In this document: one piece after another, positions 56,129 to 62,548 of the stretch
How positions within the stretch are numbered: the stretch's first letter is position 1
Layout: each line of letters begins with the position of its first letter
NCBI RefSeq assembly: GCF_000942395.1
Contig: NZ_LN812102.1
Span: forward strand, 620,017-684,016
DNA: 64,000 nucleotides
Reading direction: 5' to 3'
From: Risungbinella massiliensis
Lineage (GTDB): Bacteria > Bacillota > Bacilli > Thermoactinomycetales > Thermoactinomycetaceae
The notes under the pieces: generated by a model
Seen by the model: only the letters and a program-made list of their open reading frames with translations
What the model was told of the DNA's origin: nothing
Database searches by the model: none
Made by a program: the position numbers and the translations under genes

Positions 56129-56135
56129 TTAATAA

Positions 56136-56171
56136 AAAGGCACCTGCTTATTGGAGAAGGTGCCTTTTTTA
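56136..56171 (+). terminator. Terminator of the GNAT gene
   Basis: AAAAAGGCACCT and AGGTGCCTTTTTT form a strong stem with a T-run, 10 bases after the stop codon. Confidence 0.9.
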
Positions 56172-56255: not shown

Positions 56256-57029
56256 TCACTCTGATACTGTTGACACCAACTGCTTTGTATATGTTTTACG
56301 ATCTAACTCAAATAGGTGTGATGTAGAAAATAAATCTACGATTCTCCCTTTTTTTAACACCGCAATTCGATCACTTAAATATTGAATAGACGATAAATCA
56401 TGAGAAATAAATAAATACGAAATGCTAAATTGCTTCTTCAATTTCTTCAATAAATTGAGGATCTTTGCTTGAGTCGATACATCTAAATTGGAGGTTGGCT
56501 CGTCTAAAACTAGCAATTTAGGTTGTAAACCAATTCCTCTTGCAATTGCTACACGCTGAATTTGACCACCACTAAGTTGATGAGGATAATGGTCTAAAAA
56601 GTCTTTGTTTAGGCCTACTAATTCTAGAAGTACGGAACCCATTAGACGTTTTGAATGTCTCACTTCCTTTAAAAAATCTGGGATAACTTCAGGATAATTT
56701 TCAAGCGGTTCTATTACCGACTTCCAAATGGGCAGCCGTCCATTAAGTGATTGAGTAGGATTCTGAAAGACTGCTTGTATCTCTTTTCGCGCGTTACGCA
56801 ATGCACTACTTTTTAAAGTGTGGAATGACATTCCATTCAATATGATCTCTCCTTGGTCTGGATTTTCCAATCCAAGGATTAACTTTCCCAATGTGCTTTT
56901 TCCACTACCACTCTCTCCTATAAGGCCCAAGCACTCTCCTTCTTTCAGAGTAAAGGAAACGTTATCTAAAGCTATCAATTGTTCCTGATACTTTTTCGTA
57001 ACTTGTTTGACTTCCAGAATCGGCTTCAA
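56256..57029 (-). CDS. Nickel/peptide/opine ABC transporter ATP-binding protein (OppF/NikE/CntF type)
   Basis: About 257 residues. Walker A GESGSGKSTLGK, Q-loop AVFQNPTQSLN, signature LSGGQIQRVAIARG and Walker B LLVLDEPTSNLD are intact. It energises import through the two permeases of this operon. It lacks the C-terminal oligopeptide-transporter tail with Cys-rich Fe-S-like motif found in many OppF proteins. TTG at 57029 has AAGGAG nine bases upstream; the frame is open to 57065. It overlaps the partner ATPase gene by about 68 bases. Confidence 0.9.
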   Translation of the reverse strand: MKPILEVKQVTKKYQEQLIALDNVSFTLKEGECLGLIGESGSGKSTLGKLILGLENPDQGEIILNGMSFHTLKSSALRNARKEIQAVFQNPTQSLNGRLPIWKSVIEPLENYPEVIPDFLKEVRHSKRLMGSVLLELVGLNKDFLDHYPHQLSGGQIQRVAIARGIGLQPKLLVLDEPTSNLDVSTQAKILNLLKKLKKQFSISYLFISHDLSSIQYLSDRIAVLKKGRIVDLFSTSHLFELDRKTYTKQLVSTVSE

Positions 57030-57996
57030 ACGATACTTCTCCTTCCTGTGAGAGGTGACAAGCAACCATGTGGGCTTCGCTTATATAACTCAATATCGGT
57101 TTTTCTTTACATATTTCCTTACTATAGGGGCATCGAAATAAAAAGGGACAACCTCTCTCTGAAATCATTCCTGGTTCACCAGGCATCTCTGGAAGAGTAT
57201 CTAGTTTTTGATAAGTAAGTGTAGGACGGGCTTTTAATAACATCTGTGTGTACGGATGTTTTGGGTTGTTTCGGATACTCTCAGTTGCTCCCATCTCAAT
57301 CAAATGTCCGCCATACATCACTGCCATTCGGTTGGTTCGATTTAGTACATGTCTCAAATTGTGAGAGATCAGTAAAACAGCACAATTGGTCTCATTTTGT
57401 AGTTGACCTAATAAATCTAAAACTCGCTCACCAGTTAGCACATCCAAAGCTGTAGTAGGTTCATCCGCAATGATCAACGATGGTTTCATCATAAGTGCAA
57501 CAGCGATTGCCGCACGTTGAATCTGTCCACCACTTAATTGGAAAGGATAACTTTGGTATACGCGTTCCGCTGGTAAATTCACTCGTTCTAACCATTGTAA
57601 TGCTAATTGCTTTGCTTCCGATTTACCAATCTTCTCATGACTTCGAATCGCTTCTACCATCTGTTTCCCGATTCGTAAAAAGGGGGTGAAACTATCGGAA
57701 TAATTTTGAAAAAGATAGGCAATCTCTTTGCCTCGAAATCGGCGTTTTTCCTTCTCTGATAATGATCTCAATGGGACTTCATGCATCGTAATCTCACCTG
57801 AAACAATTGTAAGAGAATTAGGTAGTAGACCAAGTATGGCAGATGAAGTGACACTTTTTCCACTTCCGCTTTCCCCCACCAACCCAACCATTTCTCCTGG
57901 TTGGATTGTGAAATGAAGATCCTGTATTATAGTATGCGAATCCCTCGCTCTTTCCTGATTTGAAGAAATATTGAGATTTGTGATATGAAGAACCAT
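56962..57996 (-). CDS. Nickel/peptide/opine ABC transporter ATP-binding protein (OppD/NikD/CntD type)
   Basis: 344 residues. Walker A GESGSGKSVTSSA, Q-loop YLFQNYSDSFTPFLRIG, signature LSGGQIQRAAIAVAL, Walker B LIIADEPTTALD. The C-terminal oligopeptide-type tail with Cys motif GCPFLFRCPYSKEICKEKP is present. The NQERARDSH segment near the N-terminus is an unusual charged insert. Long overlap with the next ATPase gene. It pairs with it as a heterodimer. Confidence 0.92.
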   Translation of the reverse strand: MVLHITNLNISSNQERARDSHTIIQDLHFTIQPGEMVGLVGESGSGKSVTSSAILGLLPNSLTIVSGEITMHEVPLRSLSEKEKRRFRGKEIAYLFQNYSDSFTPFLRIGKQMVEAIRSHEKIGKSEAKQLALQWLERVNLPAERVYQSYPFQLSGGQIQRAAIAVALMMKPSLIIADEPTTALDVLTGERVLDLLGQLQNETNCAVLLISHNLRHVLNRTNRMAVMYGGHLIEMGATESIRNNPKHPYTQMLLKARPTLTYQKLDTLPEMPGEPGMISERGCPFLFRCPYSKEICKEKPILSYISEAHMVACHLSQEGEVSFEADSGSQTSYEKVSGTIDSFR

Positions 57997-58051
57997 AATA
58001 GGCCTCTCCTTAGTCAGATTTCCAATGATTTTAGGGTGAAATAGCTGCTAC

Positions 58052-58879
58052 TCAACGTACTCGAAATTTTTCGGAAAGACCGTCTCCAATTAAATTAGCA
58101 GCAGTTACGATTAAGATGATAGCCATTCCAGGATAGAGCATTAACTCTGGGCTCGTCTGAAAATAGGGTCTAGCATCATTTAGCATAGCGCCCCACTCTG
58201 GTTCTGGTGGTTGAGCACCTAGACCTAAAAAAGATAGGGACGAAATAGTTAAAATGATAGTTCCAATATCCATCACCGCAAGCGTAATCACTGGTCGGAG
58301 AACTTGCGGTAACAGGTGACGTCTTAATAACTTCCATGTATCACAACCACCTACTCTAGCTGCTAGAACATACTCTTTTTCTCGTTCAGATAAAACAATT
58401 CCACGAACTACCCTTGCATAGCTCATCCAATTAATTAAGACCACAGCTAACATAATATTGATCAAACTTGGACCAAGAAAACCTGCGATAGCAATAGCTA
58501 ATATAAATTCTGGTATAGAAGATAGAGCATCGAGAATACGCATCATGATAGAATCCAAGCGACCGCCTACATAACCCGATATCAGTCCTATTGGTACTCC
58601 TATTAGAACAACGGTCATTATAGTGAAAGCAGTGATTCCAAGTGTAGATTGGGAACCTTCTACTATTCTAGAAAAAATACATCGACCTAAGTGATCCGTT
58701 CCGAAAGGATATTCAAAACTTGGGGATAACAACCTCTTCGCCATGTCTACTTCGAAAGGATCGTTTGGTACTAGATAGGAACCAAACAATGTTATAAAAA
58801 CAAAAAAGACCAGAAGTATGAATCCGATCAGGCTCATTGGCTGATGAATAAGATGGTATAAGCTAGTTTGATTCTTCAT
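58052..58879 (-). CDS. ABC permease, second subunit (OppC/NikC/CntC type)
   Basis: 275 residues, six membrane helices. FGTDHLGRCIFSRIVEGSQ and the EAA loop EYVLAARVGGCDTWKLLRRHLLPQVLRP are diagnostic of DppC/NikC permeases. Here Cys replaces the more usual Ala/Ser in GGCDTWK. The start overlaps the stop of the first permease (ATGA). A 55-base gap separates it from the ATPases. Confidence 0.93.
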   Translation of the reverse strand: MKNQTSLYHLIHQPMSLIGFILLVFFVFITLFGSYLVPNDPFEVDMAKRLLSPSFEYPFGTDHLGRCIFSRIVEGSQSTLGITAFTIMTVVLIGVPIGLISGYVGGRLDSIMMRILDALSSIPEFILAIAIAGFLGPSLINIMLAVVLINWMSYARVVRGIVLSEREKEYVLAARVGGCDTWKLLRRHLLPQVLRPVITLAVMDIGTIILTISSLSFLGLGAQPPEPEWGAMLNDARPYFQTSPELMLYPGMAIILIVTAANLIGDGLSEKFRVR

Positions 58880-59820
58880 CGAGTCAATCCCTCCCCATGT
58901 CGAATTCGTGGGTCAATGATGAAATAGAACAAATCAACTAGTAAATTGATTACAACTACAAAAAAGCCGATAAATATGATATATCCTTGGATCACTGGAT
59001 AATCCCTTCCATTAATTGCGTCAATCACCATACTTCCAAGTCCTGGCCAAGAAAATAGCATTTCGGTGACTACTGAGCCACCTAACAGATATCCTATATT
59101 CATTCCAAACACAGTAATGATCGGCAACATTGCCGCCCTGAGTGCATGAAATAACAGAATTCTCCACTCCTGAACGCCTCTCGCTCTAGCAGCCCGTATA
59201 TACTCTTGCGAAAAACTCTCCAAAAGCCCTGTACGTAATAAACGAGCATAAATAGTAGCCATGGAAAAACCTAAAGTAACAGAAGGAAGAATCATATGAG
59301 TAATAGTCCCTCTCCCTATAGAAGATAGCCATTGTAATTCCAACGCAAAAAGGTGGATTAGTAACAAGCCAAACCAAAAACTAGGAATGGAAGCTCCCAT
59401 CAGGGCAAGAAAGCGGCCTAGGTGATCAGGAAATTTATTTGGATAGCAGGCAGCTAGTACTCCTAAAGGCACTGTGATCAATACCATCACTACAAATGCT
59501 CCCAAGGTTAACTCTAATGTTACAGGGATACGCCTCATTAATTCATCCCAAACAGGCTTACCATTAAGATAGGACTTTCCAAAATCAAGTTGCAGTACTC
59601 CTTTGATCCATTTACCATATTGGATCAGGATCGGTAGATCGAAACCTAGCTCTTGACGAAGCTCTACCTCTTCTTGCTTTGTGACAGCGAAATAATCGGT
59701 TTGCAACATGCTCCTTACCGGATCTCCTGGTGCTAGCTTCATCAAACTAAAAGTGAAGATAGATAGAAGAAATAATACTAAAAGCAACTGAATAAAACGG
59801 CGGCAAATAAGATTTATCAA
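58876..59820 (-). CDS. ABC permease, first subunit (OppB/NikB/CntB type)
   Basis: 314 residues, six membrane helices. RRFIQLLLVLFLLSIFTFSLMKLAPGDPVR is the typical DppB/NikB N-terminus (in parts: LLSIFTF, LMKLAPGDPV), QLDFGKSYLNGKPVWDEL follows, and the EAA loop is EYIRAARARGVQEWRILLFHALR. It starts 1 base before the stop of the binding-protein gene, so the operon runs SBP-B-C-D-F. Confidence 0.93.
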   Translation of the reverse strand: MINLICRRFIQLLLVLFLLSIFTFSLMKLAPGDPVRSMLQTDYFAVTKQEEVELRQELGFDLPILIQYGKWIKGVLQLDFGKSYLNGKPVWDELMRRIPVTLELTLGAFVVMVLITVPLGVLAACYPNKFPDHLGRFLALMGASIPSFWFGLLLIHLFALELQWLSSIGRGTITHMILPSVTLGFSMATIYARLLRTGLLESFSQEYIRAARARGVQEWRILLFHALRAAMLPIITVFGMNIGYLLGGSVVTEMLFSWPGLGSMVIDAINGRDYPVIQGYIIFIGFFVVVINLLVDLFYFIIDPRIRHGEGLTR

Positions 59821-59821
59821 C

Positions 59822-61375
59822 TTATTTCACATCCATTGTATGGGTAAGGATGTAATATTCTTCTCTTCCTGGTTTATACGATATTACTCGCTTATTCATC
59901 CCTACAATAAGATTTGGATAAATTGCATAACTATGCAATACATCCTTGTTTATCACCGTTACCGCTTTCTTTGACAACTCGATCCGTTCGGCTATATCAC
60001 TGGTTCTATTGAGTTGTTTAATGATCTCATTTAGGGATGCATGATCCACTTCTCCTAAGTTTAAAGCTCCACCTGGTAGTAATGCTGTGTTGAGAAAATA
60101 TCCTCCATCTCCACGTGGTGATGTTGAATTACTGTAGGTCGCAATATCCCAATCTTTGTTATCTTTTAAATACGTATCTGGATTTTCTACCATCTTTATC
60201 TGAATAGTTACTCCGATCTTGGCCGCATCCGATTGTAGAAGTTGAGATATTAATGGCAGCTCTGCTCTACTTTTATAGGTAATTAATTGTAAAACGAGCG
60301 GCTTACCATCTTTACTCATTTTTCCATCGGGTCCTAATTGGTATCCAGCTTCCATAAGTAATGATTCCGCTTTTTCTATATCAAACTTCGCTTCTAGGTC
60401 CTTGTTACCGAAGGGCAATACCCTATTAAATGGACCATTAGCAGCAACTGCGTTCCCTAATGAAATGTCTCGAACAATACTATTCCGATTCACTAAATAA
60501 TCGATCGCCTTTCTAATTTTAAGATCTTGCATGGTAGGTTTTTGCTGGTTAAAAAGGATAAAATGAGCACGTAAGCCCGACTGTGACACAATCTCTAAAT
60601 TTGGATTTTGTTTTATTACATTCAAACTTTCTGGCGGTAAGCTATAAACAATGTCTGCTTCCCCTGATTGAAGAACCAGTGATCTTACATTTGGATCCTC
60701 ATTAAATCGGACAACAGCCTCATCTAATTTCGGCTTTCCTCCCCAATATTCATCATATCGCTCCAGAAGAATTTCCGTGTTGGGAGTAAATTTTTTCACT
60801 TTAAATGGACCTGTACCTACAGGACTATTATTGAATGCTTCTTTCCCCATTTTTTTCTCTGCATTCACACTGATTATGGAAGTATATGGACTAACAAGTT
60901 CTGATATCAGAGCTGGATTTGGCTCCGTAGTACGGATAGTAAATGTTTGTCCATTTGCTTCCATCGACTTAATCTTAAGAGCCTTCGCCATCGATTGACT
61001 ATCTTGTATAGCTCGTTCAAAAGAAGATTTAACTGCAGCTGCATCTAGTTTGCTTCCATCTTGAAACGTAACATCATCTCGGATAATAAAAACCCATGTT
61101 TGCTCATCTTTTATTTCCCACTTGCTCGCTAGCCAACCTTGTAAATCTCCATTCTCATCCAGTTTGATTAATGTCTCTGTAATACCTGATCGCAGAGGTG
61201 CAAAATCATTGTGTGGGTCTAGTTTCCCAGATTTGAAATGCATAACAAGTGTTATTTTTTTATTTCCTTGCGTAGTACTTTCATTGGAGGTACAGCCTGT
61301 CAGGAGTGAACAAAGCACACTAACAAGTAGTAAAACAAACATTTTAGTAAAAATAGCCCTTTTCATTGTCTTCAC
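59822..61375 (-). CDS. Nickel/opine/peptide-binding lipoprotein (NikA/CntA type)
   Basis: 517 residues. Signal peptide with lipobox LLTGCTSNEST, then the class II SBP family 5 fold: LVMHFKSGKLDPHNDFAPLRSGITETL, LASKWEIKDEQTWVFIIRDDVTFQDG, VGTGPFKVKKFTPN, and IRKAIDYLVNR. The extended LDPHNDF region with His and the overall length match NikA and the staphylopine-type CntA more than plain OppA. A Zur-type operator directly upstream suggests zinc-controlled expression, and hence uptake of a zinc-metallophore complex or of another metal chelate. Ligand not proven. Confidence 0.88.
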   Translation of the reverse strand: MKTMKRAIFTKMFVLLLVSVLCSLLTGCTSNESTTQGNKKITLVMHFKSGKLDPHNDFAPLRSGITETLIKLDENGDLQGWLASKWEIKDEQTWVFIIRDDVTFQDGSKLDAAAVKSSFERAIQDSQSMAKALKIKSMEANGQTFTIRTTEPNPALISELVSPYTSIISVNAEKKMGKEAFNNSPVGTGPFKVKKFTPNTEILLERYDEYWGGKPKLDEAVVRFNEDPNVRSLVLQSGEADIVYSLPPESLNVIKQNPNLEIVSQSGLRAHFILFNQQKPTMQDLKIRKAIDYLVNRNSIVRDISLGNAVAANGPFNRVLPFGNKDLEAKFDIEKAESLLMEAGYQLGPDGKMSKDGKPLVLQLITYKSRAELPLISQLLQSDAAKIGVTIQIKMVENPDTYLKDNKDWDIATYSNSTSPRGDGGYFLNTALLPGGALNLGEVDHASLNEIIKQLNRTSDIAERIELSKKAVTVINKDVLHSYAIYPNLIVGMNKRVISYKPGREEYYILTHTMDVK

Positions 61376-61391
61376 TACCTTTCCCTTATAT

Positions 61392-61406
61392 TCGTAATCA
61401 TTACGA
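61392..61406. promoter_or_regulatory. Perfect Zur box upstream of the NikA/CntA-type operon
   Basis: TCGTAATCATTACGA is a perfect 7-1-7 palindrome equal to the B. subtilis Zur consensus core (TCGTAATnATTACGA), flanked by ATTTA as in known sites. It lies 17 bases before the start codon of the binding protein, where Zur would block transcription in zinc-replete cells. The G-C pairs distinguish it from Fur (TGATAAT) and PerR (TTATAAT) boxes. Confidence 0.85.
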
Positions 61407-61437
61407 TTTATGTAATAAAAAAAACTTGATTAAGGTA

Positions 61438-61668
61438 CTAGAATGCATCTTTTCTTGTAAGGAGAATACACGAAGCAATAATAAAACTCCTCCTATTAGA
61501 ACTATGACTTCTGGTGTTTCCCTCCAAAATATTACTCCCCATAGAAACAATCCCAATGTACCTTGTAACTTCCACTACCATTGCGTTTTCATGAGTAAAT
61601 GCTTTGGTAAGAAATAGTTGGCCCATTAAGGATACAAATCCAATACAAAATAAATAATACCCCGTTTT
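61438..61668 (-). pseudogene. C-terminal fragment of an EamA (DMT) transporter
   Basis: The minus-strand frame reads YYLFCIGFVSLMGQLFLTKA, FTHENAMVVEVTRYIGIV, shifts to WGVIFWRETPEVIVLIGGVLL and shifts back to IASCILLTRKDAF with a stop. This is the last third of an EamA exporter with two frameshifts; the rest is absent. EamA proteins (CntI type) export opine metallophores in some bacteria, so the position next to a Zur-boxed CntA-like operon is suggestive, but EamA proteins are very common. Confidence 0.75.
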
Positions 61669-62221
61669 TCATTTACTTCTCCTAGTGAATAATAATGACT
61701 ATTGAATTAGTTAACTTAAACACTCCTTTTACATTATTAATAATAATTATTACGTTTTATAAACAAACTTTATCTCTAATTATTTAATATGTCAATTGCA
61801 TTGAATAATTAATTATTCGGTCTAATCATTATGTATTAAGATATCATCCGTTAACACAACAATATTAAAAATAATAATTATTATGATTTAAGAAAACCTA
61901 GAGAACTTAATAGTATCATCTCAAAAATAAGAGCCTACAACGTGAGTGTAATACACACTCCTATTATGGGCTTTTTTGGCTAATACACTCGTAATCCGTT
62001 GGATCGCTCTTTTCCTTTATAGGGTACTCGATTGACAACTCATAGTAGCCACCGATCCACGATTCTGGATCTATATAATCACTATTTCATCACGATCTAT
62101 TCTTTCCAAACCCAATCTATCCTCTTTTGGACTTCCTACTGAGAATGCTAGTTTGGTAACAGTGCATTTATTAGATATAATGAATACTCTTCAAATTATA
62201 TAAGGACATTTAGGTGATGGT
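61669..62221. other. Intergenic stretch with AT-rich palindromes and a terminator-like hairpin
   Basis: No gene seen. TAATAATAATTATTA (61738-61752) is a perfect 7-1-7 palindrome followed by CGTTTTA, resembling a Fur-superfamily operator; ATAATAATTATTAT (61871-61884) followed by GATTTA is another AT-rich palindrome. GTGAGTGT (about 61942) and ACACACTC (about 61953), nested in AGCC/GGGCTTTTTT, form a terminator-like hairpin ending near 61978. The remaining bases up to the thioredoxin-like gene are featureless to me. Confidence 0.55.
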
Positions 62222-62548
62222 ATGGAAAGAATGACGAATTTAAATCAAATCAAAGAAACTATTCAAAAAAAACCATTGACTCTTTTGTTAGTTAAAACAA
62301 GCAATTGCGGTGTATGTGAGTCTGTTCAATTTAAGATGATCGAACTATTGAAATCACACTCACATGTCAAAGGAATATATGTCTTCAATAACGATGTACC
62401 AGAAATCACATCCGAGTATATGATTTTCTCAGCTCCTACTCTCATTCTGTTTATAGCAGGAAAGGAAATGTACAGAGTTTCTCGATTTGTTCTATTTGAC
62501 GAATTAGAGCGCCTACTTCAGTTATACGAAGAGAAATGGATAACGTAA
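62222..62548 (+). CDS. Thioredoxin-family protein (YtpP-like)
   Basis: 108 residues. TLLLVKTSNCGVCESVQFKM has the active-site CGVC (CxxC) in the expected place after the first strand, and SAPTLILFIAGKEMYRVSRFV contains the cis-Pro of the thioredoxin fold with the usual G-K-E. It is a cytosolic thiol-disulfide oxidoreductase of the small YtpP group. Targets unknown. ATG 62222 has GGTGATGG upstream; a second ATG at 62231 is possible. It is convergent with the lipoprotein gene after 14 bases. Confidence 0.87.
   Translation: MERMTNLNQIKETIQKKPLTLLLVKTSNCGVCESVQFKMIELLKSHSHVKGIYVFNNDVPEITSEYMIFSAPTLILFIAGKEMYRVSRFVLFDELERLLQLYEEKWIT

Follow-up and report, generated by a model that had tools for sequence, protein, structure and literature searches.

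The 64,000-nt stretch of DNA analysed here (the window; contig NZ_LN812102.1 of Risungbinella massiliensis, positions 620,017 to 684,016) carries a five-gene Opp5A/NikA-type importer operon headed by a Zur box, upstream of which lies a remnant of an EamA exporter gene. In structure and evolution the locus is very probably the importer half, left as a relict, of a zincophore operon under Zur control. That it has this history and, in addition, now works as the receiver of a foreign zincophore is a joint claim that we favour with less assurance. The following features, read from the sequence, underlie the argument, together with synteny in relatives, the clade of the importer, the lack of a CntL or CntM match and a Fur-family gene behind znuACB.

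61392–61406, no strand: Zur box TCGTAATCATTACGA, a perfect palindrome; positional match to the second box of complete cntLM-EamA-nik operons
59822–61375, minus strand: nikA-like binding lipoprotein (Opp5A/NikA); probable start ATG 61366, lipobox LLTGC
58876–59820, minus strand: nikB-like permease (Opp2B); NF045470 448 bits, cut-off 350
58052–58879, minus strand: nikC-like permease (Opp2C); NF045474 347 bits, cut-off 300
56962–57996, minus strand: nikD/oppD-like ATPase; its sequence shows the motifs GESGSGKS and LSGGQ
56256–57065, minus strand: nikE/oppF-like ATPase; its sequence shows the motifs GESGSGKS and LSGGQ
about 61446–61662, minus strand: EamA exporter remnant; residues ~202–276 of 289 in two frames, N-terminal two thirds missing
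61669–62203, no strand: A+T-rich spacer; relatives have cntL, cntM and the remainder of EamA at this site
56134–56169, no strand: hairpin bounded by A and T runs; folding energy about −18 kcal/mol on one strand and −19 kcal/mol on the other

The EamA remnant consists of two overlapping minus-strand frames that match residues 202–241 (73% identity) and 243–276 (32%) of a 289-amino acid EamA protein. When it was compared with the open reading frames (ORFs) of 72 neighbourhoods, the window's own included, the top matches were importer-adjacent EamA genes of relatives, at 73–78% over 37–40 residues of the better-preserved piece. The remnant is thus the C-terminus of the relatives' EamA, at the same site and in the same orientation, and relatives with cntL-cntM-EamA directly upstream of the importer explain its presence in the window. 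Pfam does not recognise the fragment. Nothing resembling a cntL or cntM remnant was detected by tblastn (E up to 1) in the window, the spacer included. Searches across the genome gave no match to CntM (PF10100) at E 1e-30 or better, with four of seven first-look candidates scored, none to CntL or nicotianamine synthase (NAS) at 1e-12 or better, and no second copy of the same EamA at 1e-3. Just beyond the window's end, some 3 kb from the EamA remnant, a truncated TnpB (140 amino acids, 684741–685160 of the contig) is a trace of a mobile element; no evidence ties TnpB to the deletion. Window positions 62222–62548 encode a small thioredoxin-like protein, a weak Thioredoxin match just below the Pfam cut-off, oriented away from the importer.

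The importer itself is made of five intact, closely spaced ORFs running on the minus strand from 61375 down to 56256. The binding protein scores 723.8 bits on the NCBIfam model NF045468 (Opp5A/NikA), above the curated cut-off of 600, and both permeases pass their curated cut-offs as well. The ATPases match nickel/peptide ATPase models without passing a cut-off: the top NCBIfam model gives 245 bits (cut-off 575) for the nikD/oppD-like ATPase, with no passing model among the best 25, and TIGR02769 gives 247 bits (cut-off 333) for the nikE/oppF-like one, whose listed TTG start overlaps the preceding gene and whose true start is probably somewhat further downstream. The binding protein matches the solved SaNikA 4ofj at 295 bits; its own structure, predicted from three sequences, had a mean predicted local distance difference test score of 46.9, too poor for a fold search. 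The hairpin is likely the shared terminator of the importer operon and the facing GNAT gene.

These results bear on an initial annotation of this DNA, made from the letters alone. It had described the EamA gene as a fragment and the operator as a perfect Zur box, and both descriptions hold. It had called the importer 'NikA/CntA-type', of which the NikA half stands and the CntA half falls: the CntA model reaches 142 bits where its cut-off is 800, and the binding protein lies outside the clade of eight CntA proteins in the tree described below, so that a CntA-type importer was rejected. Its statement that cntKLM are absent is borne out for CntL and CntM, which have no genome match at the thresholds given; CntK was not searched for.

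Opp5A importers (E 1e-130 or better) are present in 84 of 398 genomes and 29 of 146 genera in a sample of the class Bacilli. The window's own family contributes two of its 23 genomes at or near the NF045468 cut-off of 600 (724 and 591 bits; the others reach at most 221), the second carrier being Lihuaxuella thermophila (L163; L numbers denote loci, G numbers genomes). The loci compared were 70 stretches from 64 of the other 83 Opp5A genomes plus one from Halalkalibacter urbisdiaboli (L055); the 19 genomes left out come from four genera whose other members stayed in, and L133 and L137 overlap, with one binding-protein gene counted twice. Thirteen loci came from a profile search based on a two-row alignment; of these, L055 and L056 were used, and L057 (35% identity) was left out along with the others.

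In seven of the 71 stretches, cntL-cntM and an intact EamA adjoin the importer. Five of these (L102, L105, L111, L112 and L120) have the gene order cntL-cntM-EamA-nikABCDE; in L137 cntL-cntM lie upstream of the importer and EamA downstream, and in L119 all three lie downstream. CntM of all seven genomes exceeds the PF10100 cut-off (500 bits in L105, 470 in L102). The best solved relative of L105 CntM is pseudopaline dehydrogenase, and that of L105 CntL is S. aureus CntL. In six loci the ORFs beside cntL are unlike CntK in size and start; these stretches extend only ~0.7–1.7 kb past cntL, and no CntK search was made.

We counted Zur boxes with two or fewer mismatches within 320 bp upstream of the automatically called start. 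Outside genus g36, which we take to be Staphylococcus (the single member checked gives 658 bits with SaNikA), such a box precedes 40 of 60 binding-protein rows, with the window included and the boxless L133/L137 gene counted twice; L111 and L163 have boxes too, inside starts called too far upstream. As controls, the box was found in 0 of 13 g36 rows, 16 of 415 other ORFs from the stretches compared, two of the 95 such ORFs from g36 stretches and 0.2% of upstream regions after mononucleotide shuffling. The five loci with cntL-cntM-EamA in front of the importer have box matches (0–2 mismatches) in two places: at cntL, at or just within its called start in L111 and L112, and in the gap from EamA to the binding-protein gene. 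The flanks of the window's box align with this second box, over 20 of 21 bases with L112 and 30 of 36 with L105.

Within the window, TCGTAATCATTACGA is a perfect 7-1-7 palindrome located 25 nt upstream of the likely ATG of the binding-protein gene, and from the letters of the consensus we take it to be of the Zur-box type. No other exact copy of the 15-mer occurs in the 3.42-Mb genome; base composition, at the window's 39% G+C, predicts about 0.034 perfect sites. Two further predicted zinc loci carry weaker matches: a ZigA-like GTPase gene (552 bits, cut-off 600) has a box with one mismatch 44 nt before its start, and znuACB, followed by a Fur-family gene, has one with two mismatches 80 nt before znuA; when that 11-kb stretch was shuffled 200 times, such a match arose in four cases. 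Genome-wide, three-mismatch matches number 198 against 248 in a reversed-pattern control. A promoter scan of 61200–62300 gave seven sites against a shuffle mean of 5.2, no excess over shuffles. There are three Fur-family genes in the genome. The one nearest the window has a solved Fur as its best match; the one directly behind znuACB passes none of NCBIfam's models, and we take it to be zur by its position only.

We placed 72 Opp5A rows in a tree with eight CntA proteins and eight other family-5 binding proteins of relatives (labelled OppA-type, a label that was unchecked). The Opp5A rows form a single group (0.995) and CntA a separate one (0.998), while the eight OppA-type-labelled proteins are not one group, L046 standing beside CntA. 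The initial annotation had named a binding protein nested in the peptide transporters as its refutation, and this did not occur in the tree: the window's protein falls outside the other family-5 binding proteins, and an OppA/DppA peptide importer was rejected as an identification. A thirteen-member clade holding the window has a local support of 0.97. With the binding protein and both permeases combined (24 loci), the window joins L102, L105, L111, L112, L120 and L130 at a Shimodaira–Hasegawa-like approximate likelihood ratio of 99.5 and an ultrafast bootstrap of 99. Five of these six clade mates carry cntL-cntM-EamA; the sixth, L130, has in the same place a COG0523-like GTPase gene, named by resemblance, with a one-mismatch Zur box before it. 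At 12 residues that separate seven cntLM-linked proteins from 11 (of 13) g36 proteins, the window keeps the cntLM state at 11, a weak sign because common descent alone would give the same.

The evidence suggests the following scheme. The complete unit, in the relatives, runs Zur box-cntL-cntM-EamA-Zur box-nikABCDE; CntL and CntM would build a nicotianamine-like chelator from histidine, EamA would export it, and the importer would return its zinc complex, both operon halves being repressed by Zur at plentiful zinc. The window no longer has the first box, cntL, cntM or two thirds of EamA, and what is left of EamA is frameshifted; the second box is intact, as are all five genes of the importer. 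On a drop in zinc, Zur would come off the box and the importer would be made, taking up zinc on pseudopaline-like or other opine/nicotianamine-type chelators from neighbouring cells. For the window, we infer that the znuACB-linked gene encodes the Zur repressing this operon, to which class the ligand belongs and that the zincophore is foreign.

As to that class, Asp at CntM position 150 goes with pyruvate and Ala with alpha-ketoglutarate (PMC7438024). Ala is present in eight of eight EamA-type CntM proteins (the seven cntLM-EamA loci and G107), and Asp in eight of eight classical cnt loci compared (of nine fetched). The product of the relatives' CntL-CntM should be pseudopaline-like, if no racemase serves them, and the window importer may still take this class. 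Staphylopine was accordingly replaced by a pseudopaline-like compound as the candidate ligand class, on a rule that concerns the relatives' enzymes and not the window. The initial annotation's view of the locus as a metallophore receiver thus gains on its historical side, from the cntL-cntM-EamA genes and boxes of close relatives and the EamA C-terminus still in place, and differs in its ligand, which is predicted here to be pseudopaline-like and not staphylopine.

Several findings weigh against a relict importer that now serves as a zincophore receiver. Under automatic starts, 20 of the 60 rows outside g36 lack a box with two or fewer mismatches, and no such box lies anywhere in the stretches of the cntLM-bearing L137 and L119. 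Chance alone should give the genome about 1.35 one-mismatch boxes, so the box of the ZigA-like gene counts by position only. Two ZnuA-family genes are also present, and the cell is therefore not dependent on the Opp5A importer alone for zinc. The binding protein by itself supports the window's seven-member clade only at 0.71. CntM of L105 and L102 reaches 377 and 353 bits on the NCBIfam staphylopine dehydrogenase model (cut-off 675), and their CntL 157 and 142 bits on the NCBIfam CntL model (cut-off 350), which makes these proteins relatives, not members, of those narrow families. NCBIfam and PDB entries name the binding protein's family as nickel-binding. Finally, the genome contains a NiFe hydrogenase and hyp-like genes (contig 1668000–1687999, outside the window); nickel is therefore needed and could be the importer's cargo. 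From here the main rival explanation starts, in which the operon feeds nickel, for example as nickel-histidine, to the hydrogenase and the Zur box is a shared or inherited control. SaNikA-type systems are held to supply nickel for urease. The hydrogenase large subunit is above the PF00374 cut-off, scores 483 bits on NF033181 (cut-off 600) and has both cysteine motifs; the hyp-like genes beside it were named by reading ORFs, and the binding protein's NikA naming is itself above cut-off, with solved relatives called nickel-binding. Against this, the Zur box is common in the window's branch and missing from all 13 rows of the g36 branch, where the SaNikA match lies; urease is found in 20 of 21 g36 genomes but in 19 of 63 other Opp5A genomes; and in relatives the importer is placed with cntLM, NAS or a COG0523-like GTPase. 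The window's genome has no urease match (1e-20) and no LarA match. We consider a nickel importer unlikely.

Another explanation keeps zinc as the cargo and dispenses with a foreign zincophore: the importer would take zinc chelated by common compounds (amino acids, histidine, citrate or peptides), the loss of cntLM marking a shift of ligand. Importers without a visible ligand pathway are indeed common, since 35 of the 63 Opp5A genomes outside g36 show no match to CntM, CntL/NAS or urease, and Opp/NikA transporters are called promiscuous (PMC5666155). But the window's own branch is the cntLM-EamA one, and its binding protein has the cntLM state at nearly all the discriminating residues, though shared ancestry alone suffices for that; we regard such a shift as quite improbable. 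A peptide importer with a chance match to the Zur box would share its superfamily with OppA/DppA, but is barely credible given the separation of the 72 Opp5A rows from CntA and the OppA-type-labelled proteins and the conservation of the box across relatives.

If the window is a relict zincophore importer, it has parallels. The 84 Opp5A genomes comprise 21 of g36 and 63 others, among which 20 have CntM (E 1e-30), four more have a CntL/NAS match (1e-12) only, and 39, from 20 genera, have neither; 35 of these 39 also lack a urease match (1e-20). Traces of decay are seen in several loci. L098 has an EamA fragment upstream of the importer, and L110 an EamA N-terminal fragment after a MATE gene. In L208 (G074), C-terminal cntM, N-terminal EamA and C-terminal nikE pieces stand in a row, followed by a MATE gene, and two members of the same genus, G199 and G218, have the complete operon. 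In L209 (G107), cntL-cntM-EamA are intact, with a Zur-box match, and ~5 kb on a binding-protein gene is split between two frames; G107 has a separate Opp5A importer on another contig, and the split copy could be an assembly error. Four loci (L099, L110, L135 and L163) combine the importer with a MATE exporter, a nicotianamine-synthase-like gene (PF03059, 73–117 bits) and Zur-box matches, with no CntM, and possibly represent a zincophore system of the nicotianamine type, which would escape a survey based on CntM. MATE genes adjoin the importer in 23 stretches; such loci may make their own ligand by enzymes outside our searches, and the importer-only count is therefore an upper bound on receivers. 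It is conceivable, and we put it forward tentatively, that in Bacilli the Opp5A proteins outside Staphylococcus are mainly Zur-controlled receptors for opine/nicotianamine-type zinc complexes, that biosynthesis and export were lost repeatedly (as the remnants in the window, L098, L110 and L208 would indicate) and that many species live on foreign zincophores, their receptors being wrongly annotated as nickel importers.

Among known systems, the nearest are those of cluster 5 in Morey and Kehl-Fie 2020 (PMC7438024), the EamA-type opine-zincophore clusters that in bacilli combine CntM and an EamA exporter with an importer of the Opp type. The window's importer groups with loci of this kind, but the window is without CntL, CntM and a working EamA. 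From their gene content, the cntLM-EamA loci of the relatives would belong to cluster 5. The survey used CntM as its handle, and importer-only loci were therefore beyond its reach (PMC7438024). The staphylopine system of Staphylococcus aureus, CntKLM-CntABCDF-CntE, likewise has an Opp/NikA-superfamily importer for zinc with a metallophore, but its binding protein is of the CntA branch, unlike the window's Opp5A branch, and it has an MFS exporter and a racemase (PMC5666155). ZnuABC under Zur is likewise a Zur-boxed zinc importer, in the same genome as the window's; it captures the metal directly (cluster A-I), in contrast to the chelate-binding cluster C of the window importer's class (PMC5666155). 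The SaNikA nickel importer of Staphylococcus is of the same Opp5A/NikA family as the window's binding protein but occupies the sister branch (g36), adjoins urease in five of 13 examined loci and has no Zur box in any of the 13.

In metallophore piracy, an uptake transporter is kept without adding to the metallophore pool, as we propose for the window; the account in PMC13142891 deals mainly with siderophores, and no zincophore case is given in the part of it available here. A staphylococcal study raised staphylopine scavenging by cntKLM-free strains, but there the importer was missing too (PMC12507337). No description of importer-only zincophore loci was found in the portion of the zincophore literature covered. 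If the reading of the window as a relict importer turned receiver is true, the locus would be a genomic fossil of the step from producer to receiver of a zincophore, a zinc counterpart of siderophore piracy, and a large protein branch that carries an automatic nickel-binder annotation would serve zinc.

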